NCBI RefSeq assembly: GCF_011806385.1
Contig: NZ_JAATOX010000023.1
Coordinates: 1-42,888 of the forward strand
Direction: 5' to 3'
DNA from: Phaeobacter sp. HF9A
GTDB taxonomy: Bacteria > Pseudomonadota > Alphaproteobacteria > Rhodobacterales > Rhodobacteraceae
Length of the DNA: 42,888 nt
The translations under genes were made by a program, and so were the position numbers. Positions 25,422-41,092 of the stretch are shown piece after piece. The stretch's first letter is position 1. Each line of letters begins with the position of its first letter. The notes under the pieces are model-generated. The model was not told the DNA's origin, did no database searches, and saw only the letters and a list, made by a program, of their open reading frames with translations.

Positions 25422-25481
25422 GTCTTGAGCGCCCTGGGCTCGGGCCTCCTCCGCACAGCTGCTGCCGCCCTCTCATCCCAT

Positions 25482-25520
25482 AAGAGAGCCGTAACTCTCC
25501 AAAGAGATCCACGCCTCTCC
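25482..25520 (+). promoter_or_regulatory. Tandem 19-bp repeats upstream of the precursor-like gene
   Basis: Two copies of AAGAGA-n-CC-n4-CTCTCC start at 25482 and 25502, exactly 20 bp apart. Each is also an imperfect inverted repeat (GAGA...TCTC). They lie 68-106 bp ahead of the ATG at 25588. The spacing of about two helical turns suggests cooperative binding of an activator; the SARP-like or LuxR-like regulators nearby are candidates (inference). Confidence 0.5.
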
Positions 25521-25587
25521 TTTGCCGGGGCGAAAACAGAGTTGCCAGAACACTGGCGCAGTTTTCAAACCGACAAAGGATTACCAA

Positions 25588-26004
25588 ATGTCTGATTATA
25601 CCGCCGCCGAATTGCAGGAAATGGAAGCCGAGTTTTCGGCAATGGATGCCGAGTTCGCAGGTCTCGGCCTTGAAGAACTGGACAGCGAATTCGGCGAGGC
25701 TTTTGCCGAGTTGGACGCGGAACTGGACGCCGCCGGGATCAGCACGCTGGATGTCGATGCGATGTCCATCGCCGAAATGGCCGACAATGACTATGATGCG
25801 CAGTTCATTGGCCGCTTCCTGCGCAACAAGGCCCAGAAACTGATCGCCACCGTTGTCCGCCTGGTCAAGCGCTATGGCAAATGCGCCAAATGTGCGCCCA
25901 AGGTCCTGACGGCGGTGAAGTATTTCAAGGCAAAGAAATACGCATCCGCGATCCGCGCCGCCTATGATGCCTATCGCTGCATCCGGGCCTGCACAAAGAA
26001 ATAA
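25588..26004 (+). CDS. Candidate peptide precursor: acidic leader, cationic four-cysteine C-terminus
   Basis: A 138-aa protein of no family I recognise, starting MSDYTAAELQEMEAEFSAMD with AAAGGA upstream. Residues 1-70 contain 22 Asp/Glu and no Lys or Arg, in EF/ELD-rich heptad-like text. Residues 71-138 contain 19 Lys/Arg and one Asp. They form two likely amphipathic helices: about 72-98 (AQFIGRFLRNKAQKLIATVV) and 104-135. Cysteines sit at 99, 102, 131 and 135 (KCAKC and RCIRAC), well placed for two disulfides clamping a helical hairpin. There is no signal peptide. The pattern matches proforms of cationic antimicrobial peptides, with an acidic pro-part neutralising the toxic part. A hairpin, a small protein gene and a protease gene follow. 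Confidence 0.75.
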   Translation: MSDYTAAELQEMEAEFSAMDAEFAGLGLEELDSEFGEAFAELDAELDAAGISTLDVDAMSIAEMADNDYDAQFIGRFLRNKAQKLIATVVRLVKRYGKCAKCAPKVLTAVKYFKAKKYASAIRAAYDAYRCIRACTKK

Positions 26005-26011
26005 CACCCGC

Positions 26012-26050
26012 GCGCGAGACCATGCATTCCCCTCCCTCATGGTCTCGCGC
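26012..26050 (+). terminator. Strong hairpin directly after the precursor-like gene
   Basis: A perfect 13-bp stem (26012-26024 with 26038-26050) closes a 13-nt pyrimidine-rich loop and is followed by CCCCTTTTCGC. It starts 8 bp after the stop codon. It could act as a leaky terminator or 3' stabiliser, giving many more precursor transcripts than transcripts of the next two genes. Confidence 0.7.
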
Positions 26051-26102
26051 CCCTTTTCGCCGGGTTCGCAAGATTGTCCGGCACCCCCAACAGGAGCCTC
26101 CA

Positions 26103-26378
26103 ATGACACCCCTCAGCCTTCCCAGCGATCAAGAGGTAATTGATGCGTTCTTTGCGGAACACACCACCGCCGAGCCAGTGATTGACGCCATGTCGGATGA
26201 CACCTCCATCGACAGGTTGATTGCACAGCTCGAAGCCAGCTTTGCAACCGCGACGCAACTGAGCGAGCCCGCCCGCACCAAGCAGGGCAGCCTGCGCGAC
26301 GCGGTGCGCGACCTCGCCACGCGGCTAGAAGAGATCGCCACCGATCTGGCCCTGATCAATCAGCAACTCAACGATTGA
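26103..26378 (+). CDS. Small acidic helical protein of unknown function
   Basis: A 91-aa protein starting MTPLSLPSDQEVIDAFFAEH, with AGGAG six bases ahead of the ATG. I do not recognise the family. It is acidic and apparently all-helical. The last half (LRDAVRDLATRLEEIATDLA then LINQQLND) reads as a coiled coil with leucine/isoleucine at heptad spacing. It has no signal peptide, membrane segment or cysteine. It sits between the precursor-like gene and the protease gene and ends 11 bp before the latter, so it belongs to their operon. It could be an immunity factor, a chaperone for the cationic product or an adaptor for the protease; the sequence does not decide. Confidence 0.7.
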   Translation: MTPLSLPSDQEVIDAFFAEHTTAEPVIDAMSDDTSIDRLIAQLEASFATATQLSEPARTKQGSLRDAVRDLATRLEEIATDLALINQQLND

Positions 26379-26389
26379 AGGATAAGACA

Positions 26390-28069
26390 ATGAACGAGGT
26401 CATATCCCGCAAAGATCGCAAAGCCACCCGCCATTTCATCATCGGCAAACCCGCGACACAGCCGGCCCATCTGCAAGAGGTGGACCTGGAGGCGCTTGGC
26501 GCGGAGCTCACCCAGCGCCAGGCAAAAATCGCGGCGCAAACCGTCGATGGCGCGCCCGCCGCGCCGCTGGCGTTTAAGGCGATGCGCGACCCGGACAGCC
26601 AGAAGGTCCACACGCTGCAAGCTGAACTGACCGAGGCCCATGTCGAAGAGCTGCGAACCCGTCACGGCGCGGCACTGATCATCGAAGAAGACCACGATCT
26701 CGAGATGTTCTCGATCCGCCCTGGCGCCGACGCGTTTGAGATGAGCATGGCCCGGGCGTTTTCCACGCAAGACGACGAGCTGAAAGTCACCCTGAAGGTG
26801 GTGGATGAAAACGACGCGCCGCTGCCCAAGGTGCAGGTCGATCTTGCCGGTGACCTGTGGTCGGATCGGCAATTGACCAACACACAGGGCAAGGTCACGC
26901 TGAAACTGTTCGGCGAAACGCTCGACAGCCTGACCCAGCTGCGGCTGAAACCACCGCATGGCCATTGGAGCCGCGTGATCGAGAGCCCGGCGCTGTCGGC
27001 GCAGGAGAACACGGTGCAGCTCAGCAAATTGCCGGTCTCCCCTGAGGGGCCGCAGGCCAATATGTGGGGCAACGACACCATCGGCAATGTCACCATGCCC
27101 GAGGGCGCGCGGGTGCGCGTTGCGGTGATCGACAGCGGTTTTGCCGATGGTCACCCTGATGTGGTCGCCGCAGGCGGGCGCGGTTTCGCCGAGGGCGGCG
27201 ACCCCGAGGAAGACTGGAAGAGCGATGACAGCGGGCATGGCACCCATGTGGCGGGCACAATCGGCGCGCTGAACAACACCATCGGCATGCGCGGCGTGGC
27301 GGACAATGTCGATATCTTTGCGCTGCGGGTGTTCCCGGGGGCCAGCATTTCCAAGCTGATGGCGGCGATCGACACCGCCATCGAGTTGCAGGTGGACGTG
27401 GTCAATATGTCGTTAGGCGGCGCCAACCCCAGCGCGCTGTTGCAGCAGCGCATGCAGGCGGCGCGCCAGGCCGGAATCCTTCTGGTGGCGGCGGCCGGCA
27501 ATAACGCAGGGCCGGTGATGTATCCCGCCGCCTACCCCGAGGTCATGGCCGTGGCCGCGATCGGCAAGCACGGCACCTTCCCGGAGGACAGCTTTCACGC
27601 CCGCCACGTCACCCAGCAGACCAGCACCGACGGCAGCTATTTCGCCGCCGCCTTCACCTGCCGCGGTCCCGAGATCAATGTCTGCGCCCCGGGGGTGGCG
27701 ATCATCTCGACCGTGCCCGGCGACAGCTACGTGGCAAACGATGGCACCTCCATGGCGTCGCCGCATATCGCTGGCATCGCAGCCGTGCTGCTGGCCCAGA
27801 ACCCGCGGATCCAGATGATGCCGCGCAGCGATGCCCGCTCGCAGGCGTTGTTTCAGGCGGTGCTGGATGCGGCGCGCCCCTTGGGGCTCCCTGCGGAGTT
27901 CCAGGGCAGCGGGCTGCCGATCCTGACCGGCGACACACCAATTGCGCCACAACCGGGCGAAAACGAGACCCCGACCACTCCGCCGCCCAATGATACTGGT
28001 CTCGACGCGGTGGCGAACCTCATCCAGAAGGCGCTGAACGCGGCCAAGGCAATCAAGGAACGGGCCTGA
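26390..28069 (+). CDS. Subtilisin-family (S8) serine protease with prodomain and beta domain, no signal peptide
   Basis: A 559-aa protease; the ATG at 26390 has GAAGGA seven bases upstream. The triad is complete: D248 in VAVIDSGFADGHPD, H283 in SGHGTHVAGT and S454 in GTSMASPHIAG; the oxyanion asparagine is in AAAGNNAGPVMYPA. Residues about 75-105 (LTEAHVEELRTRHGAALIIE) resemble an I9-type inhibitory propeptide. Residues about 125-195 look like a carboxypeptidase-regulatory or Ig-like beta domain, with LKVVDENDAPLPKVQVDLAG. No signal peptide or membrane segment is seen, unusual for S8 enzymes with a prodomain. The C-terminus is Pro-rich, then helical. The likely role is cutting the acidic half from the precursor. 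Confidence 0.9.
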   Translation: MNEVISRKDRKATRHFIIGKPATQPAHLQEVDLEALGAELTQRQAKIAAQTVDGAPAAPLAFKAMRDPDSQKVHTLQAELTEAHVEELRTRHGAALIIEEDHDLEMFSIRPGADAFEMSMARAFSTQDDELKVTLKVVDENDAPLPKVQVDLAGDLWSDRQLTNTQGKVTLKLFGETLDSLTQLRLKPPHGHWSRVIESPALSAQENTVQLSKLPVSPEGPQANMWGNDTIGNVTMPEGARVRVAVIDSGFADGHPDVVAAGGRGFAEGGDPEEDWKSDDSGHGTHVAGTIGALNNTIGMRGVADNVDIFALRVFPGASISKLMAAIDTAIELQVDVVNMSLGGANPSALLQQRMQAARQAGILLVAAAGNNAGPVMYPAAYPEVMAVAAIGKHGTFPEDSFHARHVTQQTSTDGSYFAAAFTCRGPEINVCAPGVAIISTVPGDSYVANDGTSMASPHIAGIAAVLLAQNPRIQMMPRSDARSQALFQAVLDAARPLGLPAEFQGSGLPILTGDTPIAPQPGENETPTTPPPNDTGLDAVANLIQKALNAAKAIKERA

Positions 28070-28091
28070 CCCAAGCACCGCTTTTATCGCA

Positions 28092-28117
28092 ACTCCGCAT
28101 GGCAAGCCATGCGGAGT
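28092..28117. terminator. Hairpin between convergent protease and LuxR genes
   Basis: A perfect 11-bp stem (28092-28102 with 28107-28117) has a CAAG loop. It sits 22 bp after the protease stop and 33 bp after the end of the convergent LuxR gene, so it can serve both directions. T-runs are weak on both sides. Confidence 0.75.
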
Positions 28118-28149
28118 ATCTTGCGTCTTCGCCTACCGCCGAACAGGGA

Positions 28150-28824
28150 TCACGCGCAGTGGAGCGTGGCCTGTTCTGACGGCATCACTCCGGCCTGAAC
28201 CGCCGACACCGCCAGCGCGGTGCGATTGGCAGCTCCCGTCTTTTGCATGATGGATTTCACATCGCTCTTTACGGTGGTGAGCGGAACATCCAGCGCCCGG
28301 GCGATCTCCTTGTTCGGCGCACCGCGGAGCAATTGCCCCAGGACCTGTGTCTCGCGCGGGGTCAGCCCGGTCTGGATCGCGCGCAAACTGGCCAGCGGGC
28401 GGGTGCTCTGGACCAGCCGGTGCAGCACATCCGCCGCCCCATCCGGGAGCACACGCTGGCCTTCGGCCGTCAGCCGGACATACTGCGGGAATGTCGAAAG
28501 CGGCGCGCTGGACTGTACACAGCCGACCGGCCCGCTGGCAAAGATCCGGGCCAGTTGTGCAGCATCAAAGCCAGGCACCACCAGCAGGGAGCGCAACCGC
28601 GGCTGGTCCTTGTGCAACTGCGACAAGGCCCGAAACGTCAGCTCCGACAACCCCTCTCCCAGATCGACCACCAGCACATTCGCGCTGCCACTTGCCTTGC
28701 ACCGGCCCCTGCACAGCGTCAAGAAATCTTCCTCCGAGACGGAAAACCGAATGCCGTCTTGCTCCAGCACCGCGCCCAGAGCCGATGTGAAAAACGAATT
28801 TCGAGACACTAATAAAGCCTTCAT
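28150..28824 (-). CDS. LuxR/NarL-type transcriptional regulator with degenerate receiver
   Basis: A 224-aa regulator. The C-terminal LuxR helix-turn-helix (about 150-210) is textbook: LTPRETQVLGQLLRGAPNKE followed by VPLTTVKSDVKSIMQKTGA. Residues 1-125 have receiver-like layout (MKALLVSRNSFFTSALGAVL, then VLVVDLGEG with a possible phosphoacceptor Asp). The acidic pair near residues 7-9 is replaced by SRN, so phosphorylation is doubtful. No sensor kinase lies nearby. It converges on the precursor-protease operon and is divergent from the SARP-like gene. It may sense a ligand or partner protein and control the peptide genes. Confidence 0.87.
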   Translation of the reverse strand: MKALLVSRNSFFTSALGAVLEQDGIRFSVSEEDFLTLCRGRCKASGSANVLVVDLGEGLSELTFRALSQLHKDQPRLRSLLVVPGFDAAQLARIFASGPVGCVQSSAPLSTFPQYVRLTAEGQRVLPDGAADVLHRLVQSTRPLASLRAIQTGLTPRETQVLGQLLRGAPNKEIARALDVPLTTVKSDVKSIMQKTGAANRTALAVSAVQAGVMPSEQATLHCA

Positions 28825-29267
28825 GATGCGATCCTCGCTGGAAATACGAAATCCTTAAAACACCTCCATGATCACCACCCCGCGTTAGCCCACCGTGAAG
28901 CTTCCCTTGGGTAAATTCGGGATCTGAAAAAGGGAAATCGCCCTGCAAGCTCAGACAGCTGGCGGAACGCGCAGCTACCGGATCAGCAGCGTCAGCCCGG
29001 CGTCGCCTGACAGCCTAACGCTGCCGCCCCGCAAACCTTAACACTTCCCTAACGCAGCCCTTGGCAGAGTGATTCTTGCATTTGGGCGGGAAGTGGAAAA
29101 TGCTTTTCAACACGAAACCTTTGGAATATGCGATAGACCTACACACCGAGCCGTCCTTTTCGCAGCCCGGCCCTCCCTCCTCTGGGGAAGCCTGCGCCAA
29201 GATCACAAGGACGCACCATAGTCCCTCTTCTCTTCCAAATGCACCCGTTTCTCCACATACTCGGCCT
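28825..29267. promoter_or_regulatory. Divergent promoter region of LuxR-like and SARP-like genes
   Basis: No convincing gene lies here. The right half has three similar direct words, CCTAACGCTGCC (29014-29025), CCTTAACACTTCC (29036-29048) and CCTAACGCAGCC (29048-29059), starting 22 and 12 bp apart. SARP-type activators bind direct repeats with about 11-bp periodicity, so these are candidate autoregulatory sites. An in-frame ATG at 29100 could extend the SARP-like protein by 56 residues, but codon use there is unlike the rest. Confidence 0.4.
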
Positions 29268-30992
29268 ATGCCGACGCCAACACAAACCGTTGCCAAGCTT
29301 TTTGTGATCGGCCCCCTCCGATTGAGTGACGGGGCCGGCAAAACGGTGACGCCGCGCAGCAAGAAAGCCTGCGCGCTGCTGGCCCTGCTGGCCCTGGCGC
29401 CGCGCTGTCAGCGCACCCGGGTCTGGTTGCGCGATAAACTCTGGAGCGAAAGCTGCGAGCGGAAATCCTCGACCAGCCTGCGTCAGCTTCTGTTTGAACT
29501 GCGCCGCGATTTGGGCGGGTTGTTCGATGCCATCTTCGAAGTGGATCGCCATGCCATCATGCTTCGGCGCGATGCCGTCTGGATCGACATCCGCAATATC
29601 GAAACAGACCTCAGCACCCTGACAACGCTGCGTGTCACCGCAGACACGGATCTCCTTGAAGGGATCGACGTGGCGGATGAAGAATTCGAAGATTGGTTGC
29701 TGCTGGAACGCCAAGCCTGGCGCAACCGTGCGGCGGATCTGTTTGCTCAACTCGCGCAGCTGCCCAGCCCCGCAACCCCGCAGGCCACGCCCCCGGCCGC
29801 CGTCTTTAGCGAAACCATCCCGGAGCCGCGTCTCTGCGTTGGTGTCTTGCCCAATATCCAGCAAGGATGCGACGCCGACACCGCCTTCATTGCCGACCAC
29901 CTGGTCGAGGGGATTGTAAAGAACCTCAGAGAACTGCACCCGCTGGATATCTACGACCTGCGCGACGCCAGCGGGCCCTCCGACGGGTTGGTCGGGGCCG
30001 GCAATACCGATTACCTGCTGCGCGTCCGGGCACTTCAGATCCGCCATTCGCTGACGCTCACCTTCTTCTTTTACGCGGCCAAGAACATGGCGCTGGAATG
30101 GAGCCAATCCATTCAAACCAGCGTCGACGAGGCGCTGACCTTTGACAGCTACGTCCTGGCGGGCTTTATCAACCAGAACGTGGACCGCATCTCGCGCCAT
30201 TTCGAGCAGCGCCTGAAAACGGAATTCACCGACCAGCCCAAGCCCATCGTTGCGGCCATGTCGGCGCTGAACATGATGTTCCGACTTGATGATCGCGCCC
30301 TGGAAAACGCCGAGGCGATGCTGAGAGATCATGCCGATACGGCCTCGGCGGGCCTGTTTGACGCGATGCGCGCCTATGCCGCCAGCTTCAAAGTGGGCGA
30401 AAACCTTGGCGCGCTTGACCCGCAGGATGTCAAAGCCACGGATGCGCTGGCCCGCGACGCGCTGAACGGCAACCCGTTCAATTCCATTTCCCTGGCCTGC
30501 CTCGCCCATGCGATGGGCTATGTGTTTCATGAACATGGGCTTGCCAGCGATCTCTTGGAAAAGGCGTTGCGCCTGAACCCGAACCAGGCCTTTGTGTGGG
30601 ATCACTACGCGCTGAACCGCATGTATGTCGGCGATTTTGAAGCCGCCCATAAGGCCGCCGAACGCGCCGTCTATCTGGGCAGCTTCAGCCCGCTGAGCTA
30701 CAGCTATGACACCACATTGGCGATGACCTCGACAATGCTGGGGCGCAACCAGCTTGCCATTGCCTCCAGCCGCAATGCGCTGCGCAAACAGCCCAGGTTT
30801 GCCGCTGCCATGCGCTACCTGCTTGTGAATCTTTCCAAAATGGACCGCGAGGAAGAGGCCCGCAGCACCTATGAATCGCTGCTGCTCCGCGATCCTGATT
30901 TCGCCGACCCAGAGGTGCAGAAAGCCCGTTTTCGCCTTGTTCAAGAAGGCACCGAAACAGATCTGATTTCAACGATTAAGAAGTTTACTTGA
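29268..30992 (+). CDS. SARP-like transcriptional regulator with TolB-like and TPR domains
   Basis: A 574-aa protein from the ATG at 29268 (MPTPTQTVAKLFVIGPLRLS); 29100 is an alternative start. Residues about 8-100 form an OmpR/SARP-type winged helix, with TPRSKKACALLALLALAP and SSTSLRQLLFELRRDLGGLF. A short BTAD-like helical part follows (FEDWLLLERQAWRNRAADLF). About 185-320 resembles the TolB/adenylate-cyclase-associated domain common in alphaproteobacterial SARP-like proteins (VGVLPNIQQG, FIADHLVEGIVKNL). The C-terminal 200 residues contain TPR-like helical pairs (LEKALRLNPNQAFVWDHYAL). It is cytoplasmic and one-component. It heads the operon with the PAP2 and second protease genes, 12 bp ahead of the former, and is the best candidate activator of the whole peptide locus. 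Confidence 0.82.
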   Translation: MPTPTQTVAKLFVIGPLRLSDGAGKTVTPRSKKACALLALLALAPRCQRTRVWLRDKLWSESCERKSSTSLRQLLFELRRDLGGLFDAIFEVDRHAIMLRRDAVWIDIRNIETDLSTLTTLRVTADTDLLEGIDVADEEFEDWLLLERQAWRNRAADLFAQLAQLPSPATPQATPPAAVFSETIPEPRLCVGVLPNIQQGCDADTAFIADHLVEGIVKNLRELHPLDIYDLRDASGPSDGLVGAGNTDYLLRVRALQIRHSLTLTFFFYAAKNMALEWSQSIQTSVDEALTFDSYVLAGFINQNVDRISRHFEQRLKTEFTDQPKPIVAAMSALNMMFRLDDRALENAEAMLRDHADTASAGLFDAMRAYAASFKVGENLGALDPQDVKATDALARDALNGNPFNSISLACLAHAMGYVFHEHGLASDLLEKALRLNPNQAFVWDHYALNRMYVGDFEAAHKAAERAVYLGSFSPLSYSYDTTLAMTSTMLGRNQLAIASSRNALRKQPRFAAAMRYLLVNLSKMDREEEARSTYESLLLRDPDFADPEVQKARFRLVQEGTETDLISTIKKFT

Positions 30993-31004
30993 AGGGAGAC
31001 ACCA

Positions 31005-31877
31005 TTGAGTATTCAAGACATTCTCACCCAACACAGGTTCATAGTGACCCCCACCGGGTTGCGCCTTGATGACCAGGCCGAAGCTGCCGTCGATAATCCC
31101 GACACCGCAGCAAACGCCGGCGCGACCCTGTCGCTGTTGTCGCTGAACCGCAACCGGAATCGCAATCGCAACCGGAACAGAAACCGCAATCGAAATCGCA
31201 ACAGGAACCGGAACCGCACTCTGGACACAACCGCGAGCGCAGCGCTGCAAGAACCCTGGAAAGAGCGGGAACTGCTGCATGATCTGCGGTCGGAATGGCA
31301 GGATCTGCCGGTGCCGCTGCCGCCAAATGCGGAAGGCTTGCGCCGCCATGCCCGTGATCTATTGGTCAAGCAGGCCCTGCGCGCCACTCCGCAAGAGGCC
31401 CATCGCGAAGCAGAAATCCTGCGCGAGGCCAACATCGAGCTTTCCGGCTATCTGCGTCCCCTTGGCATCGAGGAGCTGGGCGGCTATGGCGCCACCGAGG
31501 GTCTGTTTTACCTGATCCTGGCGCTGACCGACGAAATCGGCCTGCGCTACAAGGATCGCTACAACGTGCTGCGTCCCAATCAGATCGAGCCACGCCTGCG
31601 CCCGCTGTTGCCCAACCCGCCGCATCAATCCTATCCGTCAAACCACTCGTTTCAGTCTTTCTCGATTGCCTTTCTGTTCTCTCGGATCCTGCCGGAGCAC
31701 CCGGCCAGTTCCGAATTGTTCAACAGCGCAAGACGCATCGCCGAGAACCGCGAATGGGCGGGGCTGCATTACGCATGTGACACGCAGGCCGGCTATCAAC
31801 TGGCCCGCATGATCGCGCCGGTTCTAGAAAAAGTCTGCAAAAAGCAAATGCTCGCAGCTCAAGCGGAGTGGCTCTGA
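31005..31877 (+). CDS. PAP2-superfamily phosphatase/haloperoxidase-like protein with (Asn-Arg)12
   Basis: A 290-aa protein. I take the TTG at 31005 because AAGGGAG lies just upstream and no ATG is near. The C-terminal half has the complete acid-phosphatase signature: KDRYNVLRP (K-x6-RP), PSNHSF (PSGH motif with Asn) and REWAGLHYACD (R-x5-H-x3-D). These are the residues that bind phosphate or vanadate in type-2 phosphatidate phosphatases and vanadium haloperoxidases. No signal peptide and no clear membrane segments are seen, so it is soluble. Residues 48-71 are twelve Asn-Arg dipeptides. Its stop codon shares one base with the start of the next protease gene. The substrate is unknown. Confidence 0.85.
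   Translation: MSIQDILTQHRFIVTPTGLRLDDQAEAAVDNPDTAANAGATLSLLSLNRNRNRNRNRNRNRNRNRNRNRNRTLDTTASAALQEPWKERELLHDLRSEWQDLPVPLPPNAEGLRRHARDLLVKQALRATPQEAHREAEILREANIELSGYLRPLGIEELGGYGATEGLFYLILALTDEIGLRYKDRYNVLRPNQIEPRLRPLLPNPPHQSYPSNHSFQSFSIAFLFSRILPEHPASSELFNSARRIAENREWAGLHYACDTQAGYQLARMIAPVLEKVCKKQMLAAQAEWL
31146..31217 (+). repeat. Coding 6-bp repeat encoding (Asn-Arg)12
   Basis: Twelve hexamers AAY-CGN/AGR occur in frame within the PAP2-like gene. The hexamers use AAC and AAT for Asn and CGC, CGG, CGA, AGA and AGG for Arg. The mixed codons argue that the peptide is kept by selection and is not a fresh slippage tract. Confidence 0.9.
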
Positions 31878-33256
31878 TGGGACAATATGAAACCGATCTG
31901 ACTGTCGCCGGGCAGGAGAACTATCCGCAGTATAACGCGCTGTGGCACCTGCAAACCCTGGGCGTGCTGGACGAGCGCAATGCACCGCGGGGCTGGTCCC
32001 CGATGACACCGCAGAAACCCACGCGCGTGGCCGTGATCGACACCTCTGTCGCGCCGCAGCATCCCAACCTCAAGGACACGATCAACACGGAGCTGTCGAT
32101 CGACTTTTTCTCCGCGCGGCTCGGCTCCTTTCCCTATCGTGGCGAGCTGGACACGCTTGATCTGGACTGGGACACCAACATCGCTGATGGGCTGCCTCAT
32201 TCCGTGCGTCTGTTGACAGAATTCACGGATCGGCTGTCGAACGGGTCTGCCGCCCATCACAACAAGGTCCAGCCCTGCACACAGCCCGATTTCTCCGGCC
32301 ATGGAACCTGTATCGCAGGCCTTGTCGGCGCCCGGCCCTGCGTGGCGCAGCGCCGCCTAGCATCCGGCGAGACCCAGCCTCTGGTCCTGCCCTATGCCGG
32401 TGTCGATCCGATGTGCGAAATCGTTCAGCTCTCGACCAATTTTGATCCCGAACCGGAAGGTATGATTCTGGCCTTCCTCTACGCCGAGCTGATCCAGGCC
32501 GATGTCGTGCTGCTGCCGCGCACGATTTCGGACCCCAGCCGGATTGTGCCTGAACTGGGCGATATCATGCTCGGCAATCACAGCATAAAGGATCTGGTTC
32601 GTCAGATTGCCGCCACCCCGGCCCAGGACGAGATGTGGAGCGAACTGGCTGAACTCATCGTCAACGTGTCGCAAAAACGGCCCGTCGTCTGCGCCGCCGG
32701 GAACGCCAATGAAGAGGGCGCGATCTATCCGGCGAACCTCGCCACCGATCACAATGGCATCATCTCGGTCGGAGCGGTAAACGCCAAAGGGTTCCCCAGC
32801 AGCTACTCGGGCCGTCAAGGCATCACCGTCTTTGCCCCGAGCAATGACGCCAAGTCCTTTGACGCCACCTCGGTACGTTTGGACGAGCGATCAGCTGACT
32901 ACGAGGGGATTGGTGTTCCTGCGAGCAATGAGAACGAGAAGTATTCCAGCTTTGACGTGATCAGCACCGATGTGCCCGGGCCAGCGGGCTACTCGGGCAG
33001 CGTCTTTGCGGGCCCGCCGCGCGATGGGGCGCTCCAGGAATATGGGTCGTATTTCAGCCGGTTTGGCGGCACCTCTGCGGCCTCTGCCTTGGTGGCGGGC
33101 TTCTTGTCACTGGGGCGCACGGTCGCGGCGTATCCCTGCGGTTCGGGGAGCGCGGCGAAGAGTTGGCTCTTGTCAAAAAGCCACCAGCAAGCGGACAGCG
33201 ATATCCCTTTCCAGGTCCCCTGCTGGTCAGGGACGCCCCAGTTTCCTGACTCATAG
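31877..33256 (+). CDS. Second subtilisin-like (S8) serine protease, no prodomain
   Basis: A 459-aa protein starting MGQYETDLTVAGQENYPQYN at 31877, one base into the stop of the PAP2-like gene. The triad is present: D55 in VAVIDTSVAPQHPN, H142 in FSGHGTCIAG (Cys instead of the usual His after GHGT) and S400 in GGTSAASALVAG. The oxyanion Asn is in VVCAAGNANEEGAIYP. There are large insertions between D and H (about 85 residues) and between the Asn and Ser motifs. There is no signal peptide and no inhibitory prodomain, so it would be active on folding and is probably cytoplasmic. It may act on the same precursor or regulate the first protease. It ends the operon; only weakly structured sequence follows. 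Confidence 0.88.
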   Translation: MGQYETDLTVAGQENYPQYNALWHLQTLGVLDERNAPRGWSPMTPQKPTRVAVIDTSVAPQHPNLKDTINTELSIDFFSARLGSFPYRGELDTLDLDWDTNIADGLPHSVRLLTEFTDRLSNGSAAHHNKVQPCTQPDFSGHGTCIAGLVGARPCVAQRRLASGETQPLVLPYAGVDPMCEIVQLSTNFDPEPEGMILAFLYAELIQADVVLLPRTISDPSRIVPELGDIMLGNHSIKDLVRQIAATPAQDEMWSELAELIVNVSQKRPVVCAAGNANEEGAIYPANLATDHNGIISVGAVNAKGFPSSYSGRQGITVFAPSNDAKSFDATSVRLDERSADYEGIGVPASNENEKYSSFDVISTDVPGPAGYSGSVFAGPPRDGALQEYGSYFSRFGGTSAASALVAGFLSLGRTVAAYPCGSGSAAKSWLLSKSHQQADSDIPFQVPCWSGTPQFPDS

Positions 33257-33625
33257 AGCCATATCGGCGGCAGGTGCGCAGAGCGTGTGATGCGGGTTTG
33301 TGATCTTTCACACCCACGCGCCTGCTGCTGTGTCGTTTTTGTGTGGGGACCGGGCGCAAACGCGAACATCCGCCTTATTTGAGGCGGTTTTGATTTTGGT
33401 ATTTGGTTGCGGGAGTAGGATTTGAACCTACGACCTTCAGGTTATGAGAGCGCTTAGGGCGTCTCGCACCCTCTGCCCCGATTTGCGCCCGCCTACTATA
33501 TCTTATTGGTTTTGCTCATTTTTCATTGACGTCAAACTTCACCGGCTTCTACCTCTTACGCCAAGATATGCGTTCATTTGCTTCCACAGTGCTTCCACGG
33601 AAGCGAAGCAGAGAGGAGACCAAAC
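33257..33625. other. Non-coding junction between the peptide locus and the integrated element
   Basis: No gene is supported. It contains several imperfect short inverted repeats just after the second protease gene (for example TGTGA-TCTT-TCACA near 33300), the tRNA fragment at 33404-33448 and about 175 bp of leader before the integrase, with its GAGAGGAG ribosome site at 33611-33618. Confidence 0.5.
33404..33448 (-). other. 3' fragment of an initiator tRNA-Met gene (attachment-site copy)
   Basis: Read on the minus strand, the 45 bases run from anticodon loop CTCATAA through stem CCTGA, variable AGGTC, T-arm GTAGG-TTCAAAT-CCTAC and acceptor TCCCGCA to the encoded end ACCA. The CTCATAACC...GGTC...CCCGCAACCA pattern is that of bacterial tRNA-fMet. 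Beyond 33448 the sequence no longer pairs or matches, so the 5' half is absent. Such a displaced 3' end beside a tyrosine integrase marks one end of an element that targets this tRNA gene. Confidence 0.85.
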
Positions 33626-34804
33626 ATGCCAAAACTGACGAAACGAACCGTCGAAGCCCTCATGCCAGAGGCCAAGGATTACTTCCTCTGGGACAGCCAA
33701 ATTGCAGGTTTTGGCGTCCGGGTCATGCCCTCTGGCGCGAAGACCTATCAGGCGCAGTATCGAAAAGGTGGCAGAACCCGGCGCGTATCGGTTGGGCGGC
33801 ATGGCAAAATCACCGTTGATGAAGCCCGTAAGCTGGCCAAGGAGATCATGGGACAGGTCGCCAAGGGCGAGAACCCCGCCGAAGAGATCTCACAGCACCG
33901 CAAGGCCCCCACCGTGGCTGCGCTCTGTGAGCGCTTCTTTGAGGCCCACGCAAAGGAACGTTGCAAGCCTTCCACCCAAAAGGAATATCGGCGCGCCATT
34001 GATCTGTTTATCGTACCCGCACTGGGGAGCTTTAAGGTCGTAGACGTCGAGCGCCGGGACATTGCCGAGTTGCATCACAAATTCCGCGACAAACCCTATC
34101 AGGCAAACCGGACGCTGGGCGTTCTGTCGAAGATGTTCAATCTGGCCGAGATCTGGGGCCTGCGCCCGGATGGCTCTAATCCCTGCCGCCATGTCCCGAA
34201 GTATCGCGAGGTGAAGCGGGAACGCTTCTTGAGCCAATCGGAGCTGCAACGGTTGGGGCAGGTTCTGACCGAGGTGGAACGCGAAGACAGCGAGACGCCG
34301 CATATGGTCGCGGCGTTCCGGCTATTAATCCTGACCGGCTGCCGGTTGGGTGAGATCCAAACTTTGAAATGGGACTACATCACCACCAACGGCATGGAGC
34401 TGCCCGACAGTAAAACCGGGGCGCGGCGCATCCCCCTGCCCCAACCGGCGCGGGATGTGCTGGCGCGCCTGCCGCGCACCCCCGGCAACCCTTACGTGAT
34501 CGAAGGGAAACTGCCCGGCCAATATGCCACTGACCTGCAACACCCATGGCGGCGCATCCGAGACCGGGCGGGCCTTTCTGGCGTGCGCATTCATGACTTG
34601 CGCCATACCTATGCATCGAATGCGGTCTCTGCCGGAATGCCGATCCAGATGGTTGGGCGATTGCTGGGCCATACCCAGATCCAAACCACAATGCGGTATG
34701 CACATCTGGCAGATGATCCGGTCCGGCAAGCCGCAGAAGAAAACGCCGCGCGGCTGGGATCTATGGTCGGTGATATTGGACGTCCGAGATTGCGGGCCGT
34801 GTAG
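33626..34804 (+). CDS. Tyrosine recombinase / site-specific integrase
   Basis: A 392-aa P4-type integrase; the ATG at 33626 has GAGAGGAGA upstream. It has an N-terminal arm-binding DUF4102-like domain (about 1-90, starting MPKLTKRTVEALMPEAKDYF), a core-binding SAM-like domain (about 100-190) and a catalytic domain. The catalytic residues are Arg in LTGCRLGEIQ, His/Arg in HDLRHTYAS, His in LLGHTQIQTT and the nucleophile in MRYAHLADDP. It cuts and joins DNA at the tRNA-fMet site through a 3'-phosphotyrosine. It lies 178 bp from the tRNA fragment, reading into the element, the usual place for such an integrase. All catalytic residues are intact. Confidence 0.95.
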   Translation: MPKLTKRTVEALMPEAKDYFLWDSQIAGFGVRVMPSGAKTYQAQYRKGGRTRRVSVGRHGKITVDEARKLAKEIMGQVAKGENPAEEISQHRKAPTVAALCERFFEAHAKERCKPSTQKEYRRAIDLFIVPALGSFKVVDVERRDIAELHHKFRDKPYQANRTLGVLSKMFNLAEIWGLRPDGSNPCRHVPKYREVKRERFLSQSELQRLGQVLTEVEREDSETPHMVAAFRLLILTGCRLGEIQTLKWDYITTNGMELPDSKTGARRIPLPQPARDVLARLPRTPGNPYVIEGKLPGQYATDLQHPWRRIRDRAGLSGVRIHDLRHTYASNAVSAGMPIQMVGRLLGHTQIQTTMRYAHLADDPVRQAAEENAARLGSMVGDIGRPRLRAV

Positions 34805-34815
34805 CGGCACGTACC

Positions 34816-34930
34816 GATACGTAGGGGCTAAGGTTGCCGCCAATCCCGTACGTTACGTATAAGGGTTTCTAGACCCACCAACCGACCGTTACCTATACGT
34901 AGGGACCGGCCAACGCCTACGTATACGTAT
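34816..34930. repeat. TACGTA repeat cluster (candidate iterons or operators)
   Basis: Five TACGTA hexamers lie at 34818, 34854, 34896, 34918 and 34924 within 112 bp. Several are embedded in a longer ATACGTAGGG/CCTACGTA word. They fill the gap between the integrase and the 243-aa gene. The density is far above chance for a 6-mer, which suggests a binding array for an element-encoded protein. Confidence 0.7.
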
Positions 34931-34954
34931 CATAACAGACAAGAGACATTTCCT

Positions 34955-35686
34955 TTGACCAGTCATTCCACAGATCAGCTAAAATACCTGTGGCGCATCA
35001 GCGTGCCGCTGTCCCGCGTTTGGGTCGAGTACGGCGAACCCAAACTCAAGGCACGCTGGGAAGAATTGCAAAAGGTCTCCGCCATCACTGCATTCGATGA
35101 CGCAGCGCAACAAGTTCGCGATGCAGAATGTAGCCCGATGGAAAAGATGCAAATGCTTTTGCAGAAACCACAGGAAATCTTGACCGCGCGGGCAGAAGTT
35201 GAACGTAAGCTCAAACAAAATATCCTAAGCTATATCTCGCAGGGGCATGCCCATGCCTACGGGTTTGAAGCCCCGCGCAAAGTCGCCAATGCTCCGGTCT
35301 ACATTCCCAAATCAACTTGGGCTGGAAAGGTTGATTGGTACGAGCGCACGCTTAGCCATCAGGGGCTAGAATTTGTGGAAGTGCGCATAACCACCAACCG
35401 TATCCGCAATGAGATCCTAGACCGTGGCAATGTCACGGTAAAAGCCCCCACGCCTGCTGGCCGCCCCACTATCGGCCCATCGATCCAAGCTGCATTCAAG
35501 GCCTTGGAAAAAAGTGGGGAGATCGATCTGTCTGCGTCTCAACGGTCGCACTACCCCAAGATCCAAGCGTGGCTGGAATTGAACGCACCTGATCTGAACG
35601 TGCCTGCCGCGCAAATTTCCGGCAAAACAATACACAAATATTTTTCGCCTCTTTTCAAAGACTTAAAGAAAGTCTCAAATCTATAA
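34955..35686 (+). CDS. Element-encoded protein of unknown function
   Basis: A 243-aa protein starting MTSHSTDQLKYLWRISVPLS. I do not recognise a named family. The first 110 residues are helical and charged (EKMQMLLQKPQEILTARAEV). Residues about 110-165 look like a beta-rich segment (LEFVEVRITTNRIRNEILDR). The end after the PTPAGRPTIGP linker resembles a small helical DNA-binding domain (LSASQRSHYPKIQAWLELNA). It is soluble, with no signal peptide. The TACGTA array lies directly upstream, so autoregulation or replication/excision control is possible. An AT-rich hairpin (35681-35690 with 35695-35705) overlaps its stop codon and may end the transcript. Confidence 0.7.
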   Translation: MTSHSTDQLKYLWRISVPLSRVWVEYGEPKLKARWEELQKVSAITAFDDAAQQVRDAECSPMEKMQMLLQKPQEILTARAEVERKLKQNILSYISQGHAHAYGFEAPRKVANAPVYIPKSTWAGKVDWYERTLSHQGLEFVEVRITTNRIRNEILDRGNVTVKAPTPAGRPTIGPSIQAAFKALEKSGEIDLSASQRSHYPKIQAWLELNAPDLNVPAAQISGKTIHKYFSPLFKDLKKVSNL

Positions 35687-35769
35687 ATCCTAGAGGAATT
35701 TATAGAACTATTTAGAGATTTTGTCTTGGGGCAAGCCTAGAGCATCGAAAACGAAACAAGGGTAAAACG

Positions 35770-36018
35770 ATGCTCAACAAGACACCAGCCAACGCAAACA
35801 ACGCCCCCGCACAGGACTATTTGGACGGCTTCATTGACGAACGCACAGCGGCGGATTTCCTCTGCCAGAGCGTGCGCACCATCCAGAAATGGCGCGTCAC
35901 CGGCTACGGCCCGAAGTTCTACAAATCGGGCCGTTCTGTGCGCTATCGCCGCCGCGACCTGCTGGAATGGGCAGAAGGTCGCCGCCACGGCAGCACCAGC
36001 AGCTACAGCGCCGCATAA
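35770..36018 (+). CDS. AlpA/excisionase-like helix-turn-helix protein
   Basis: An 82-aa protein with AAGGG upstream of the ATG. Residues about 18-68 form a MerR-type helix-turn-helix of the excisionase/AlpA (HTH_17) class: DERTAADFLCQSVRTIQKWR then GPKFYKSGRSVRYRRRDLLE. Such proteins bend DNA at the attachment site or activate the integrase gene of P4-like satellites and islands. It stands between the 243-aa gene and the small conserved protein, in the early-control part of the element. It could act as recombination directionality factor; the sequence alone cannot separate this from transcriptional activation. Confidence 0.87.
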   Translation: MLNKTPANANNAPAQDYLDGFIDERTAADFLCQSVRTIQKWRVTGYGPKFYKSGRSVRYRRRDLLEWAEGRRHGSTSSYSAA

Positions 36019-36135
36019 GTTTTGCCCGCGTCGGGGTTGGCAGCGCCGCGCGGGATTTTGGGGCCGGATGGCTCTCAGGGGCGCGGGCGAAACAGTCTCG
36101 CGCCCTTTCTTCTCCCAAATTCAGGACAAATCACC

Positions 36136-36354
36136 ATGGCAAATCAGCCTGCACAGAAATTCAAGATCGGCCTTATCACGGCCACCGTCTGGCAGAATGA
36201 CGGGTTCTATTCCGTTGATCTGTCGCGCAGCTACAAGACCGATACCGGCGAGTGGCGCAATACCGGCAGTTTCCACCATTCAGATCTTCTCAATCTGGCC
36301 AAATGCGCGGAACGCGCTGAGATCTGGATTGGCCGTCAAATATCTGCAAAGTGA
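36136..36354 (+). CDS. Conserved small protein of integrative elements
   Basis: A 72-aa protein starting MANQPAQKFKIGLITATVWQ; I prefer this ATG because AGGACA precedes it and the upstream part of the frame overlaps non-coding text. It is a compact, probably all-beta domain with WQNDGFYSVDLSRSYKTDTG and FHHSDLLNLAKCAERAEIWI. I recognise this as a type repeatedly seen beside integrases and replication genes in proteobacterial islands, but I know no proven function. A small OB-like nucleic-acid-binding fold would fit the length. Three hairpins and the replication-initiator-like gene follow. Confidence 0.75.
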   Translation: MANQPAQKFKIGLITATVWQNDGFYSVDLSRSYKTDTGEWRNTGSFHHSDLLNLAKCAERAEIWIGRQISAK

Positions 36355-36360
36355 TCCAGC

Positions 36361-36506
36361 GCCGGGCCATGCCCGGCCCCAAAACCCATGCTGCCCCGCC
36401 GGAGGCAGAAAGGGGGTCAAAGACCCCCGCCCCCTTTCCCAACATCTCGACAGACACGGCGGCCAAATGGGCCGCGCGGGAGGGGGGGCTTGTAACACCC
36501 CCCTCC
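36361..36506. promoter_or_regulatory. Three-hairpin region ahead of the Rep-like gene (candidate origin)
   Basis: Three perfect inverted repeats follow each other: 36361-36367 with 36371-36377 (7 bp), 36412-36418 with 36422-36428 (7 bp) and 36479-36487 with 36498-36506 (9 bp). They lie in the 180-bp gap directly before the initiator-like gene. They could be a nicking origin, a leader-control region or terminators. Confidence 0.45.
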
Positions 36507-36534
36507 ACGAATACGAAAGCGAAGGCCAGCGTAA

Positions 36535-37683
36535 ATGGAAGCGGATATCCTGCATTCGGGCTTTGATGGGCTTAAATTCACTGTCGAGACCGATATCCCA
36601 CCAGAACTGCGTACCGCGCTGGCGGAGGCCAAAGCGCAGGCAGTTCAATCCAGCGCTGAGGCCATTCTAGAATTCGGCTCTGTGGCCCTCTCAGTGCGCC
36701 GTACAGGCGGTTCTGCCTTTTCCGCCCATACTGGGGAGTATGGGGCCGAGTGGTACTTTCTCGACCCGGAAAACCGCCCTGCAAACAATCCCGGCATCAC
36801 CGTGGACTTTCGCGCTTTCCTGCTCGCCACTGGCGGGCTGGACGCCGCAGAGAAACACTTTCGCACTTGCATGGACGCCTTTGGCATCCGTTATTCCGAT
36901 CACCTGTTGCGAGTGACGCGCGTGGACTATGCCATCGACTTTCTCGCGCCATGGTTTGAACCAGACCGCGAGGCTCTGGTGGTGCCTCCCGGCACCCGTG
37001 TTCAGGAACACACCGGCATTGATGAAACCGAAACCCACGCAACTGGCGCGCGTGTCACCGGCCTACGCGCCGGAGCCGTCGCCAACCGACAATTGGTGAT
37101 CTACGACAAACGGCAAGAGGTCATGCAGAAGGGCAAGCTGGGCTGGCTGACGATCTGGAACGACGCGCGCGCCCAATTGAACCGCCCGCCCTTGGATCTG
37201 TCCGACCGGCTGGCAAGCCAAGTCTGGCGGTTTGAGCTACGCATGGGGTCCAAACAACTGCGCAACCGCTGGGAAATGCGAAGTTGGCAAGACCTACGCG
37301 ATATGGTCGGAGACGCCTACACCGAGTTCTGCGACAAAATCCGTTACACCTGCCCCACCAGTGACAGCAACCGCGCCCGCTGGCCCACGCACGACCTCTG
37401 GCGCGAGGTCGCCAGCGTCATCGCCAATGACCTGTATGAGAATTGCTCTGGCGTGCTACCCAGCGATGTGATCGAGACCAACCTGGCCGAACACATGCGC
37501 ATGCTGGACCGACAAATCCTAGGCCTTCTGGTGTCACGAGCTGCCGCGTCAGAGGTGCAACCGGAGGGGTTTGCAGAGTTTCTCGACACGCATATCGAAG
37601 CGATCCAGCGTTTGTCTGAGGAACACCCTACACCGCTGGCAGAGCGCATCGGCAAGGCGGCGGGGCGGTACCGGTTTAGGTAA
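36535..37683 (+). CDS. Replication-initiation-factor-like protein (Rep_trans type)
   Basis: A 382-aa protein starting MEADILHSGFDGLKFTVETD. The layout recalls rolling-circle initiators of the Rep_trans/replication initiation factor class: an early beta-rich domain, the paired motif LRVTRVDYAIDFLAPW near residue 125, NRQLVIYDKRQEVMQKG near 185, and SQVWRFELRMGSKQLRNRW near 225. The C-terminal 120 residues are helical. I cannot identify the nicking tyrosine with certainty. It follows a hairpin-rich stretch that may be its origin. Such proteins let integrated elements replicate as circles after excision. The assignment is by motif look only. Confidence 0.65.
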   Translation: MEADILHSGFDGLKFTVETDIPPELRTALAEAKAQAVQSSAEAILEFGSVALSVRRTGGSAFSAHTGEYGAEWYFLDPENRPANNPGITVDFRAFLLATGGLDAAEKHFRTCMDAFGIRYSDHLLRVTRVDYAIDFLAPWFEPDREALVVPPGTRVQEHTGIDETETHATGARVTGLRAGAVANRQLVIYDKRQEVMQKGKLGWLTIWNDARAQLNRPPLDLSDRLASQVWRFELRMGSKQLRNRWEMRSWQDLRDMVGDAYTEFCDKIRYTCPTSDSNRARWPTHDLWREVASVIANDLYENCSGVLPSDVIETNLAEHMRMLDRQILGLLVSRAAASEVQPEGFAEFLDTHIEAIQRLSEEHPTPLAERIGKAAGRYRFR

Positions 37684-38016
37684 TCCTGAACTTGTCTGCG
37701 CTCCGCTTCAAATGTCAGCAAAGCGCAGAAAGCGCCCTTTGCAAACTCAGCCGTTTGTCGCAATCAGCTGAGTATTTATGCTGCGGCGCAGTCCGCCGTT
37801 CCTGCCGTTCGCTGTGTCTGCGAGGGTTTCTGACTCGACGACCTCACACAGTTCGGGACGGAAACGCCGCTCCCATCGCAAAAGCAGTTTCGGCTGGCAG
37901 CCCGAAGCGGACAAGCATTTTAGGTCTCTCCTGCGCTGCTCAGATGGTTCAATTTTTGGTTGATTAGCCCTTTGCGGCAGAGTGTAGTGACTCACAAATC
38001 TGATTTGGAACGCAAA
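37684..38016. other. Intergenic stretch between the element core and its cargo
   Basis: No gene is supported in this 333-bp gap. It holds short self-similar words such as AAAGCGCAGAAAGCGCCC near 37720 and a GC-rich central block. It has the look of the decayed intergenic repeats often seen in Rhodobacterales, but I cannot confirm this. Base composition changes here, from the GC-rich element core to the AT-richer cargo. Confidence 0.35.
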
Positions 38017-41000
38017 ATGATAGATACGAACATTCTACTACGTGGTTCTGAGTGGCGCAGATGGGATCCACATATCCATGCGCCAGGGACCGTATTGAAT
38101 GATCAGTACCCCACTTTCGAAGGGGAGCCAACAGAAGAGGCTTGGGACCTCTATCTGCGAGCTTTAGAGACCTCTACTCCAGTTATCGAGGCGCTTGGGG
38201 TTACCGATTACTACAGCACTGAGTGCTATCAGAAAGTCCGGGAGTTCGGTCAACGTGGGCGGCTAGGTAGCGTCGGTCTTATCTTTCCAAATGTTGAATT
38301 GCGATACGGTGTAGGCACCGCTAAGGGCGCGCCTGTAAACTTTCACCTGATGGTATCGCCGGAAGATCCAGAACATCTGGAAAAACTGTCTCGTTTCCTC
38401 GCCAAGCTAACTTTCAAATCGGGAACTGACACGTACCGATGCACCCCCGAAGACATCAGACGTCTCGGACGGGATTTTACAGGTAAATCGCTAAATGATC
38501 GCGCGGCCTTTTCGGCGGGGGCAAACCAATTCAAGATTGAAGTCGATCCGTTCATCGAAGCTTGGCAGGACACGCCGTGGATCAGAGACAATGCACTAAT
38601 TGCAGTTCCCGGAAGCAATCAAGATGGATCTGCTGGACTGCAAAAAGACGCTTCTCTCGCAGCACTTCGCCGCAAGATTGAACGTATTGCTAATGTTATT
38701 TTTGCTTCGCAGCCGAAGCAACGTGACTTCTGGGCCGGATTATCCGGAAAACTTTCAGAGGAAGACTTCATCGACTCCTACGGCTGCTACAAGCCCTGCA
38801 TGCATGGCAGCGACGCCCATGAATTGGCAAGAGTAGGCGTACCAGATCTGCAAAGATATACGTGGATCAAGGGCGACTTGAGCTTTGAGAGTTTACGTCA
38901 AGTCTGCCTTGAACCCGTTCACCGCGTCATAGTGGCGACAGATCCCCCCACCGGGGCGTTGTCCTCGCAAGCCATCAGTTGTGTCAGTGTAAAAAATGCT
39001 GACTGGTTTGGTAATAAACCTATTCCTCTGAACGCAGGTTTAATCGGGATTATTGGCGCGCGAGGATCGGGGAAAACCGCACTAGCTGATATGATTGCCG
39101 GTGGCGCATATGCACTTTCCGATCATGTAAATGAAAAGTCGTTCGTGCGAAGAGCACGGGAACTTTTGGGCGACGCGGAACCATGTCTATGCTGGCAAGA
39201 TGGTACCGAAACTTCCAATCCGCTCAGTTCTATCGACCATGAAGAAGTGTGGGATGCGCCGAAGGTTCAATATTTGTCGCAGCAGTTTGTAGAACAACTC
39301 TGCTCATCTGATGGTGCTACCGAAGCGCTTCTAAAAGAAATACAGCGTGTTATCTTCTTGTCGCATCCACGTGAAACGCGAGCTGACGCGGTAGATTTTG
39401 GCCAACTATTGGACCTAAGAGCTGCTAGAGGACGAGAGGCGCGGCAACGCTACGAAATCGCTATCGCTCAGATTGGCGAACAAATCGGAAAGTTGCGAGA
39501 TCAACAAAATGCCTTGAATGGGCTGAAGAGAAAGCGAGATGATCTCGCCGATCAGAAGCGCAAAGATAATGATCAGCGAGCAAAACTCGTACCAAAATCG
39601 GCTGAGAAGCACGCCCAAGATTATGAGAAGGTAACATTAGCTGCTGAAAAAGTACGCCAAGCCATCGAAGGTGAGGATCGTAGGCTAGCCCAGCTAGATT
39701 TGCTGGAAGACTACGTCAATGACTTTCAGAATAGACAAGTACCTAACCAGCTGGCTGAACTGAAAGCTGAGCACGCACGAGCGGGCCTCGAAGATGCAAT
39801 GTGGGAGTCTTTCCGTCTTAAGTTCACTGGTGATGTCTCCGGGACCATTGAGGCCGAAAGAAAGCAAGCCGGGAAGAGAAAGAAGCAGTTGACAGGTAAG
39901 GCTGCAGTCAAACCGTCGCCGGAGGATCCACCAACAGAGGTCAGTCTACTGCCCGCAGATACACCGATTGAAACACTGCCATTGTCTCTTTTGGCCGCCG
40001 AAGAAGAACGGCTACAACGTTTGATCGGAGTGGACAAAAACAAGCAAAGGCAACACGCTCAGCTGTCTGAGAAAATCCGCCGAGCTGACGCGTCGTTGAA
40101 GTCGCTAGAAACTCAAATACAAACATCGGAGGCGGCTAAAACCGAGATTGCGGCAAAGCTCGAAGAAAGAGATCGGAGTTACGAAGGGGTTTTCGCGGGT
40201 ATCGTTGCGGAAGAAGTAGCTCTCGCTGACCTCTATGCCCCCTTGATGAAGCGCTTGGACCGAGAAAGCGGTGCCCTAGGTAAGCTCCGCTTTTCTATCA
40301 GACGACATGTTGACGTTAAGAGCTGGGCAGATCGCGGAGAGGAATTGTTTGACAAGCGCCGCAGCAGCGGTTTTCAGGGGCTTGGAGCCTTACAGAAAGC
40401 AGCCATGGTGCATTTAGCCCCATCTTGGCAAAACGGTGATGCCGCCGCAGTTTCCGCCGCAATGGCGGAGTTTCGGGACAAGCACGATCAAGACATTCGA
40501 GCGAGTGCCAAAGTGGATCCAAACATTGATCGACCGAGTTGGCTCAGGTGGCTAAAAGACGCCTCAGAATGGCTATATAGCACGGAGCATATCCGATTGT
40601 CGTATGGCATTCAGTATGAAGGTGTTGAACTCGAGACACTGTCTCCCGGAACGCGCGGTATTGTGCTGTTGCTGCTTTATCTTGCCATCGATACCGAAGA
40701 TGACAGGCCGCTGATAATTGACCAACCTGAAGAAAACTTGGACCCGAAGTCGATCTTCAATGAGTTGGTCGGACTTTTCAGAGATGCCAAACTTCGCCGT
40801 CAGATTATCGTTGTAACCCATAACGCCAACCTGATCGTTAACACTGACGCAGAGCAAGTCATCGTTGCGGAATGTGGGCCCCTGCGCGCCAATTCTTTGC
40901 CAAACTTCACTTACACTAGTGGATCTCTAGAAAACCCAGTCATTCGCAAGCACGTCTGCGAAATTCTTGAGGGAGGCGAAAGAGCTTTTCAAGAACGTGC

Positions 41001-41028: not shown

Positions 41029-41092
41029 TCTTCGGGTCCAAGTTTACTCTTGCTTACGGACGGCATTTTTGATCGCGGGGAAATTTCAACTC

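Follow-up and report, generated by a model that had tools for sequence, protein, structure and literature searches.

Bacterial gasdermins are described, in the part of the account used here, as inactive cytosolic effectors that are unlocked by neighbouring proteases of several types (PMC9079055), and the pro-nucleases of Hachiman, AVAST and canu as pro-effectors that, with a partner protease, are recruited by different systems (PMC12799240, excerpt). An acidic pro-part has been reported to abolish the activity of a cationic peptide (PMC6057973, excerpt), and the plant alpha-hairpinins are presented as two antiparallel helices with Cys1-Cys4 and Cys2-Cys3 clamps in a CX3C/CX3C arrangement, made as secreted precursors (PMC7191063, excerpt). 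The subject of this analysis is P138, a charge-segregated, presumed precursor of 138 amino acids (aa) that is encoded at 25588..26004 (+) by the first gene of a conserved cassette of marine bacteria, here of Phaeobacter sp. HF9A. The window, i.e., the whole stretch of DNA analysed, is contig NZ_JAATOX010000023.1 of assembly GCF_011806385.1, positions 1-42,888 of the forward strand. P138 has an acidic and a basic half and is accompanied by a protease gene in every locus that carries it; it may be a protease-activated, electrostatically masked helical peptide that perhaps acts on its own cell, a reading to which a probability of about 0.5 is given.

Charge split and conservation of P138

The segregation of charges that a sequence-only reading had described is exact. 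The leader half of P138 (residues 1-70; 25588..25797, +) holds 22 D/E and no K/R/H, and the helical half that follows, hereafter the core (residues 71-138; 25798..26001, +), holds 19 K/R and a single D/E; none of 100,000 shuffles of the residues was as segregated as the native protein. The four cysteines that had been reported, at positions 99, 102, 131, and 135, are present as well. The start at 25588 is backed by the MSDYT start of the homologues and by an AAAGGA box upstream.

Twelve further distinct loci carry a homologue, which makes 13 with the window, L010 and L011 being strains of one species. Matches were obtained in 3 of 18 genomes of the genus, 5 of 295 of the family (two weak ones were dropped), 9 of 390 of the order and 2 of 385 of the class (one weak one was dropped); these draws overlap, and duplicates were removed. 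Six P138 loci were drawn from the genome collection and G921 and G721 were added; the loci in which the protease is an S8 subtilisin (S8-type) number nine. The four others (G145, G783, G754, and G944), referred to as S1-type for their trypsin-like protease, encode distant relatives with 26-40% identity to P138. Three weak matches (G061, G017, and G347) were set aside for E-values of 0.004-0.009 with lower identity or coverage of part of the query, and the surroundings fetched for the first two hold no cassette. The viral contigs searched contained no relative of P138, and the plasmids searched only a truncated one, in two records of Tritonibacter mobilis. In the record examined, that of strain F1926, the region upstream is retained and P138 runs into a stop after 68 residues, while in the T. 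mobilis strain at L007/G678 (L080) the cassette is complete and lies next to a left flank of the F1926 type (97% over 8.2 kb), so that the presence of the cassette varies within the species.

The acid-then-base split is kept in all 13 loci, with leaders of 21-28 D/E and 0-3 K/R and cores of 14-22 K/R and 0-3 D/E, and none of 20,000 shuffles per homologue equals it; homologues lacking it were looked for, as evidence contrary to the sequence-only reading, and none was found. Between the four distant relatives and P138, identity is 18-31% in the leader and 34-49% in the core. Leader charge thus stays constant while leader sequence drifts, apart from a motif near residues 60-66 (S-x-x-E/D-x-A-D) that is conserved in the alignment, a pattern that would be expected if selection acted on the charge of the leader and not on its sequence. 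The ratio of non-synonymous to synonymous substitution rates (dN/dS) is 0.016-0.093 against the close loci L007 and L008, the other four comparisons being saturated in dS. C102 and C131 are invariant (13/13), whereas C99 and C135 are confined to the nine S8-type proteins; only these nine of the 13 keep all four cysteines, so that the inner pair 102/131 is general and the outer pair 99/135 is not. A strict acid-then-base filter was passed by six of 4579 open reading frames (ORFs) of at least 60 aa (47 loci, 855 kb), all of them P138 homologues; it missed the remaining homologues, at least four because the script chose an upstream in-frame start that added basic residues. The split, the invariant C102/C131 and an adjacent protease, which together define the P138 family, are found in each of the 13 loci.

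Protease pairing, the cassette and the wider module

Downstream of P138, on the same strand, lies a protease gene in 13 of 13 loci, and no homologue without a nearby protease, the other kind of contrary evidence sought, came to light. In the nine S8-type loci the protease is an S8 subtilisin, and the gene for P91 is placed between the two. P91, a small helical protein of 91 aa (26103..26378, +), and S8a, a subtilase of 559 aa (26390..28069, +; Pfam Peptidase_S8, E 9.2e-44), are each present in 9/9 of these loci, and in the window both stand 3' of P138 on its strand, where the sequence-only reading had put them; the catalytic D/H/N/S motifs of S8a are present, as judged by eye. In the four S1-type loci, it is not S8a but an S1 trypsin-like protease (Pfam Trypsin) that directly adjoins P138, with P138 first and the serine protease second on the same strand in all four. 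This swap of the S8 fold for the unrelated S1 fold argues for a genuine precursor-protease pair. P91 had been regarded as a component of the system, which is true of all S8-type loci but not in general, since it is missing from the four S1-type loci. Relatives of S8a were also seen on plasmids of Agrobacterium, Pararhizobium, Paracoccus, and Variovorax, where the neighbouring ORF of about 80 aa is, by eye, unlike P91.

The three-gene unit P138/P91/S8 initially proposed has its genes as placed but is part of a longer one. Comparison by blastn with L007-L012, L016, and L017 delimits a conserved cassette at about 25477..33255, with flanks that are not shared, and its seven genes follow an identical order (P138, P91, S8a, LuxR on the minus strand, SARP, PAP2, S8b) in the nine S8-type loci. 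The LuxR/NarL-type regulator (28150..28824, -; Pfam GerE, 7.7e-14) occurs in 9/9 of them. It is followed by a SARP-type regulator of winged helix-turn-helix/TPR architecture with a tentative start codon (29160..30992, +), which has TPR matches and homologues annotated as SARP family transcriptional regulators, by a soluble PAP2-superfamily protein (31005..31877, +), and by S8b, a subtilase of 462 aa (31868..33256, +; Pfam E 2.7e-17; 9/9 S8-type loci) that overlaps the PAP2 stop. The PAP2 protein is just under the Pfam cut-off (4.9e-06), has the KX6RP / PSNH / RX5HX3D signature and matches the acid phosphatase 7f17/7f18. The co-occurrence of the S8, P91, SARP and PAP2 genes, which the sequence-only reading had suggested examining, holds for the SARP/TPR-type regulator in 13/13 loci (in the window and in G944, Pfam detects TPRs and no BTAD) and for PAP2 in 11/13, including G145 and, as a fusion to S8, G944, but for S8 with P91 in only 9/13. 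The exceptions for PAP2 are G783, whose locus ends at a contig end, and G754, with none in the 15.9 kb fetched.

Directly 3' of the P138 stop lies a 13-bp GC-rich hairpin (26012..26050, +; fold z -4.9). Of 12 P138 loci (L011 being left out), 10 have a stem of at least 10 bp there, and of 74 control gaps, 21 do (Fisher p 0.0005, the loci being related to one another). Seven of the 12 loci reach a fold z-score of -3.4 or below, and the other five have weaker ones. The hairpin is possibly an attenuator between the precursor and protease genes and may lower the expression of the protease relative to that of the precursor; its placement resembles that in operons yielding more precursor than protease. 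On the other side of the cassette, the region 33578-42472 contains an integrase-like gene, an AlpA-like ORF and genes for proteins of 1022 and 467 aa (PHP/AAA and PIN types), all named by eye with no library search. It is possibly a mobile element, and its phage-type integrase-like gene, starting at 33578, has no match in the six collection loci.

The SARP, PAP2, and protease genes extend beyond the P138 family. Of the 295 genomes sampled from the family, 91 gave a match to PAP2 at 1e-5, and in the 11 loci fetched from the 12 closest genomes without P138, S8 adjoins PAP2 in 11/11 and a SARP-like gene is present in 10/11; the triad loci without P138 that were examined contain no ORF that passes the charge-split filter. 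More divergent loci have a papain-like protease instead of S8 or a PAP2-S8 fusion protein, and L078 has no protease beside PAP2. Fusions of PAP2 and S8 in one protein are encoded at L073:7485-10265 and L091:4622-7225 (Pfam PAP2 and Peptidase_S8). The SARP-PAP2-S8 triad is also found on plasmids of Rhizobium, Palleronia, and Aliiroseovarius. The idea that the module is specific to a peptide precursor is therefore not borne out, and P138-P91-S8a is, to judge by these P138-less loci, an add-on to a wider module.

Other features of the module were recorded. Genes for animal-type haem peroxidases adjoin the triad in several Rhodobacteraceae (L018:12497-16254, from Palleronia, L071, L072, and L079), and in Rhizobium L020:12553-15151 the triad is followed on its 3' side by genes for a 481-aa protein with no Pfam match and a ThiF/E1-like protein and by a 65-aa ORF. 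Near the N-terminus of all 32 triad PAP2 proteins compared (32/32) stands a short, exact tandem repeat, which starts at residues 5-163; that of the window is (NR)12, at residues 48-71 (about 31146-31217). The repeat unit varies between lineages (NR, NK, SR, NRG, NGGM, GGLN, NGA, DGAV, HSGS, SHG, SGH, NSF, GR, or TH). Exact repetition seems to be selected at the protein level, because the DNA units differ synonymously in the 13 cases checked (6 distinct units of 12 in the window, 11 of 13 in L066 and L077).

Proposed mode of action of P138

Structure predictions of modest confidence give P138 separate helices, with a helical basic core and an ill-defined leader. A model from eight sequences has a mean predicted local distance difference test score (pLDDT) of 67.9, with 77-87 in the core blocks and mostly 45-70 in the leader, and places core helices at 71-95, 97-114, and 118-137; a second, from 13 sequences and with a mean of 57.1, repeats these core helices, while its leader stays for the most part under 50. 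Neither has a confident single domain spanning both halves, such as would, if compact and non-amphipathic, speak against the sequence-only reading, a question that the two models answer only weakly. Helices 71-95 and 118-137 exceed shuffled versions in amphipathicity, 127 and 77 of 5000 shuffles, respectively, equalling them. The sums of the cysteine positions (99+135 = 234, 102+131 = 233) and a predicted turn at 115-117 fit, in the model, an antiparallel hairpin clamp with 99-135 and 102-131 facing each other; cytosolic proteins may keep such pairs reduced, hence the clamp is putative.

In the favoured reading, the acidic helical leader would mask the cationic, cysteine-clamped helical core, and the downstream protease (S8 here, S1 in the distant relatives) would cut P138 near residues 67-75 and free a basic amphipathic peptide of about 65 aa, which might bind anionic targets, either membranes or nucleic acids. 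Control of this peptide system would lie with the SARP/TPR-type regulator, joined in most loci by PAP2 and a second protease. Activation would probably take place inside the producing cell, because a simple hydropathy scan of the proteins of the S8-type cassette detected neither a signal peptide nor a membrane segment, and because none of its seven conserved genes was recognised as one for export or immunity, the flanks not being conserved. The lack of hydrophobic N-termini and membrane segments in these proteins makes us lean slightly to the producer, rather than its neighbours, as the target, and an exported bacteriocin is no more likely than a self-directed, triggered toxin of the gasdermin manner. 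In G944, signal-like sequences (by eye) stand at the start of the PAP2-S8 fusion and of a second S1 protease, leaving room for a periplasmic version in that locus.

Several points weigh against P138 being such a pro-effector. The structure models are weak, the larger alignment having lowered confidence (57.1 vs. 67.9), and Foldseek returned nothing at E <=0.001; the amphipathicity of helix 97-114 lacks significance, being reached by 768 of 5000 shuffles. Many toxins change fast, but this core is well conserved, and the second protease and PAP2 are left unexplained. Hairpin energies are unexceptional, as 10 to 72 of 170 gene ends are as low or lower.

An unlikely but serious alternative is that P138 yields an exported and possibly modified peptide, similar to bacteriocins or to ribosomally synthesized and post-translationally modified peptides (RiPPs), whose acidic leader would be removed by the cognate protease and whose product would hit other cells, with YcaO or oxidative tailoring in some lineages. 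It would account for the precursor-protease gene order, and antibiotic genes are often under the control of SARP-type regulators. Genes for haem peroxidase (Palleronia L018, L071, L072, and L079) or ThiF (Rhizobium L020) in the wider loci also favour it, as does a gene for a YcaO-domain protein (L090:12484-13284, -; 29.8 bits, cut-off 25.7) that adjoins the regulator in G754, 11 bases from the SARP/BTAD gene. Modifying enzymes, which the sequence-only reading had held to be absent, were indeed not recognised in the S8-type cassette by Pfam and NCBIfam scans, and this one relative contradicts that view; a modifying enzyme in a single P138 locus of 13 counts against the export reading. The lack of a recognised exporter, signal peptide or immunity gene in the cassette weakens the secreted-bacteriocin version, and the core of P138 is more conserved than its leader, the reverse of what is seen in many RiPPs. 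Literature searches combining SARP, PAP2, subtilisin, YcaO, Roseobacter, or bacteriocin gave nothing beyond a secretion-system review.

It is improbable that P138 is a regulator that binds nucleic acids or proteins and is switched by proteolysis, its acidic half shielding a basic binding domain. The basic helical core, its strong conservation and the regulators within the cassette are compatible with such a role, but P138 matches no DNA-binding family in Pfam or NCBIfam, and the polyacidic leader and the cysteine pair are explained no better than by a pro-effector. Very improbable is a P138 that is never split and serves as a block-polyampholyte inhibitor, chaperone or scaffold of its always adjacent protease, since the shift from S8 to S1 with P138 unchanged is awkward for a specific inhibitor and P91, found only with S8a, is a better candidate for a protease partner.

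Comparison with known systems

Libraries hold no entry above cut-off for P138: only weaker matches were obtained in Pfam and NCBIfam (DUF7945, E 0.03; SCO4402 family, E 0.074), none in PHROGs or PADLOC, and a single designed bundle (E 0.028) in the PDB. S8a matches a general subtilase model of PADLOC (PDLC03014), and P138 itself matches no known anti-phage defence there. The proposed state of P138 as an inactive cytosolic effector with an adjacent activating protease of more than one type is reminiscent of gasdermins, which are larger, have a short C-terminal mask and are palmitoylated in one system of the account cited (PMC9079055), whereas P138 is small and its acidic mask would be N-terminal; no gasdermin domain was matched above cut-off in Pfam, PHROGs or PADLOC. 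P138 could, though this is doubtful, belong to a minimal module for suicide or defence that resembles the gasdermin one: its acidic leader would electrostatically mask, in the cytosol, a cationic helical hairpin clamped by disulfides or thiols, and interchangeable S8 and S1 proteases would release it under a SARP/TPR sensor. No smaller protease-unmasked effector of that type would then be known. Pro-nucleases likewise pair a pro-effector with a partner protease, but theirs, in the portion of the account used, is an MBL-fold nuclease (PMC12799240). Compared with the plant alpha-hairpinins, P138 has the spacing CX2C-X28-CX3C instead of CX3C-Xn-CX3C, and its S1-type relatives have one cysteine pair only.

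Defensins and cathelicidins resemble P138 in having an acidic pro-part ahead of a cationic peptide, with no sequence relation. Animal antimicrobial peptides with anionic propieces have a signal peptide and are secreted by the Sec pathway, unlike P138. QhpE is reportedly an intracellular subtilisin-like leader protease, i.e., a cytosolic S8 enzyme acting on one precursor; S8a scores 96.2 bits with NF049966, below the cut-off of 165, and no quinohemoprotein genes adjoin it. Protease-activated effectors and acidic propieces are thus known already; their combination, and the P138 family, had no library match above cut-off. If the pro-effector reading is true, the SARP-PAP2-protease module, widespread and so far unexplained, would gain a first role for one of its branches, and bacteria would restrain an intracellular helical peptide by an electrostatic mask, dependent on charge and not on sequence, and by swappable proteases. 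Propiece masking of the animal type would then be connected to the protease-triggered effectors of bacteria, in a compact and testable system.
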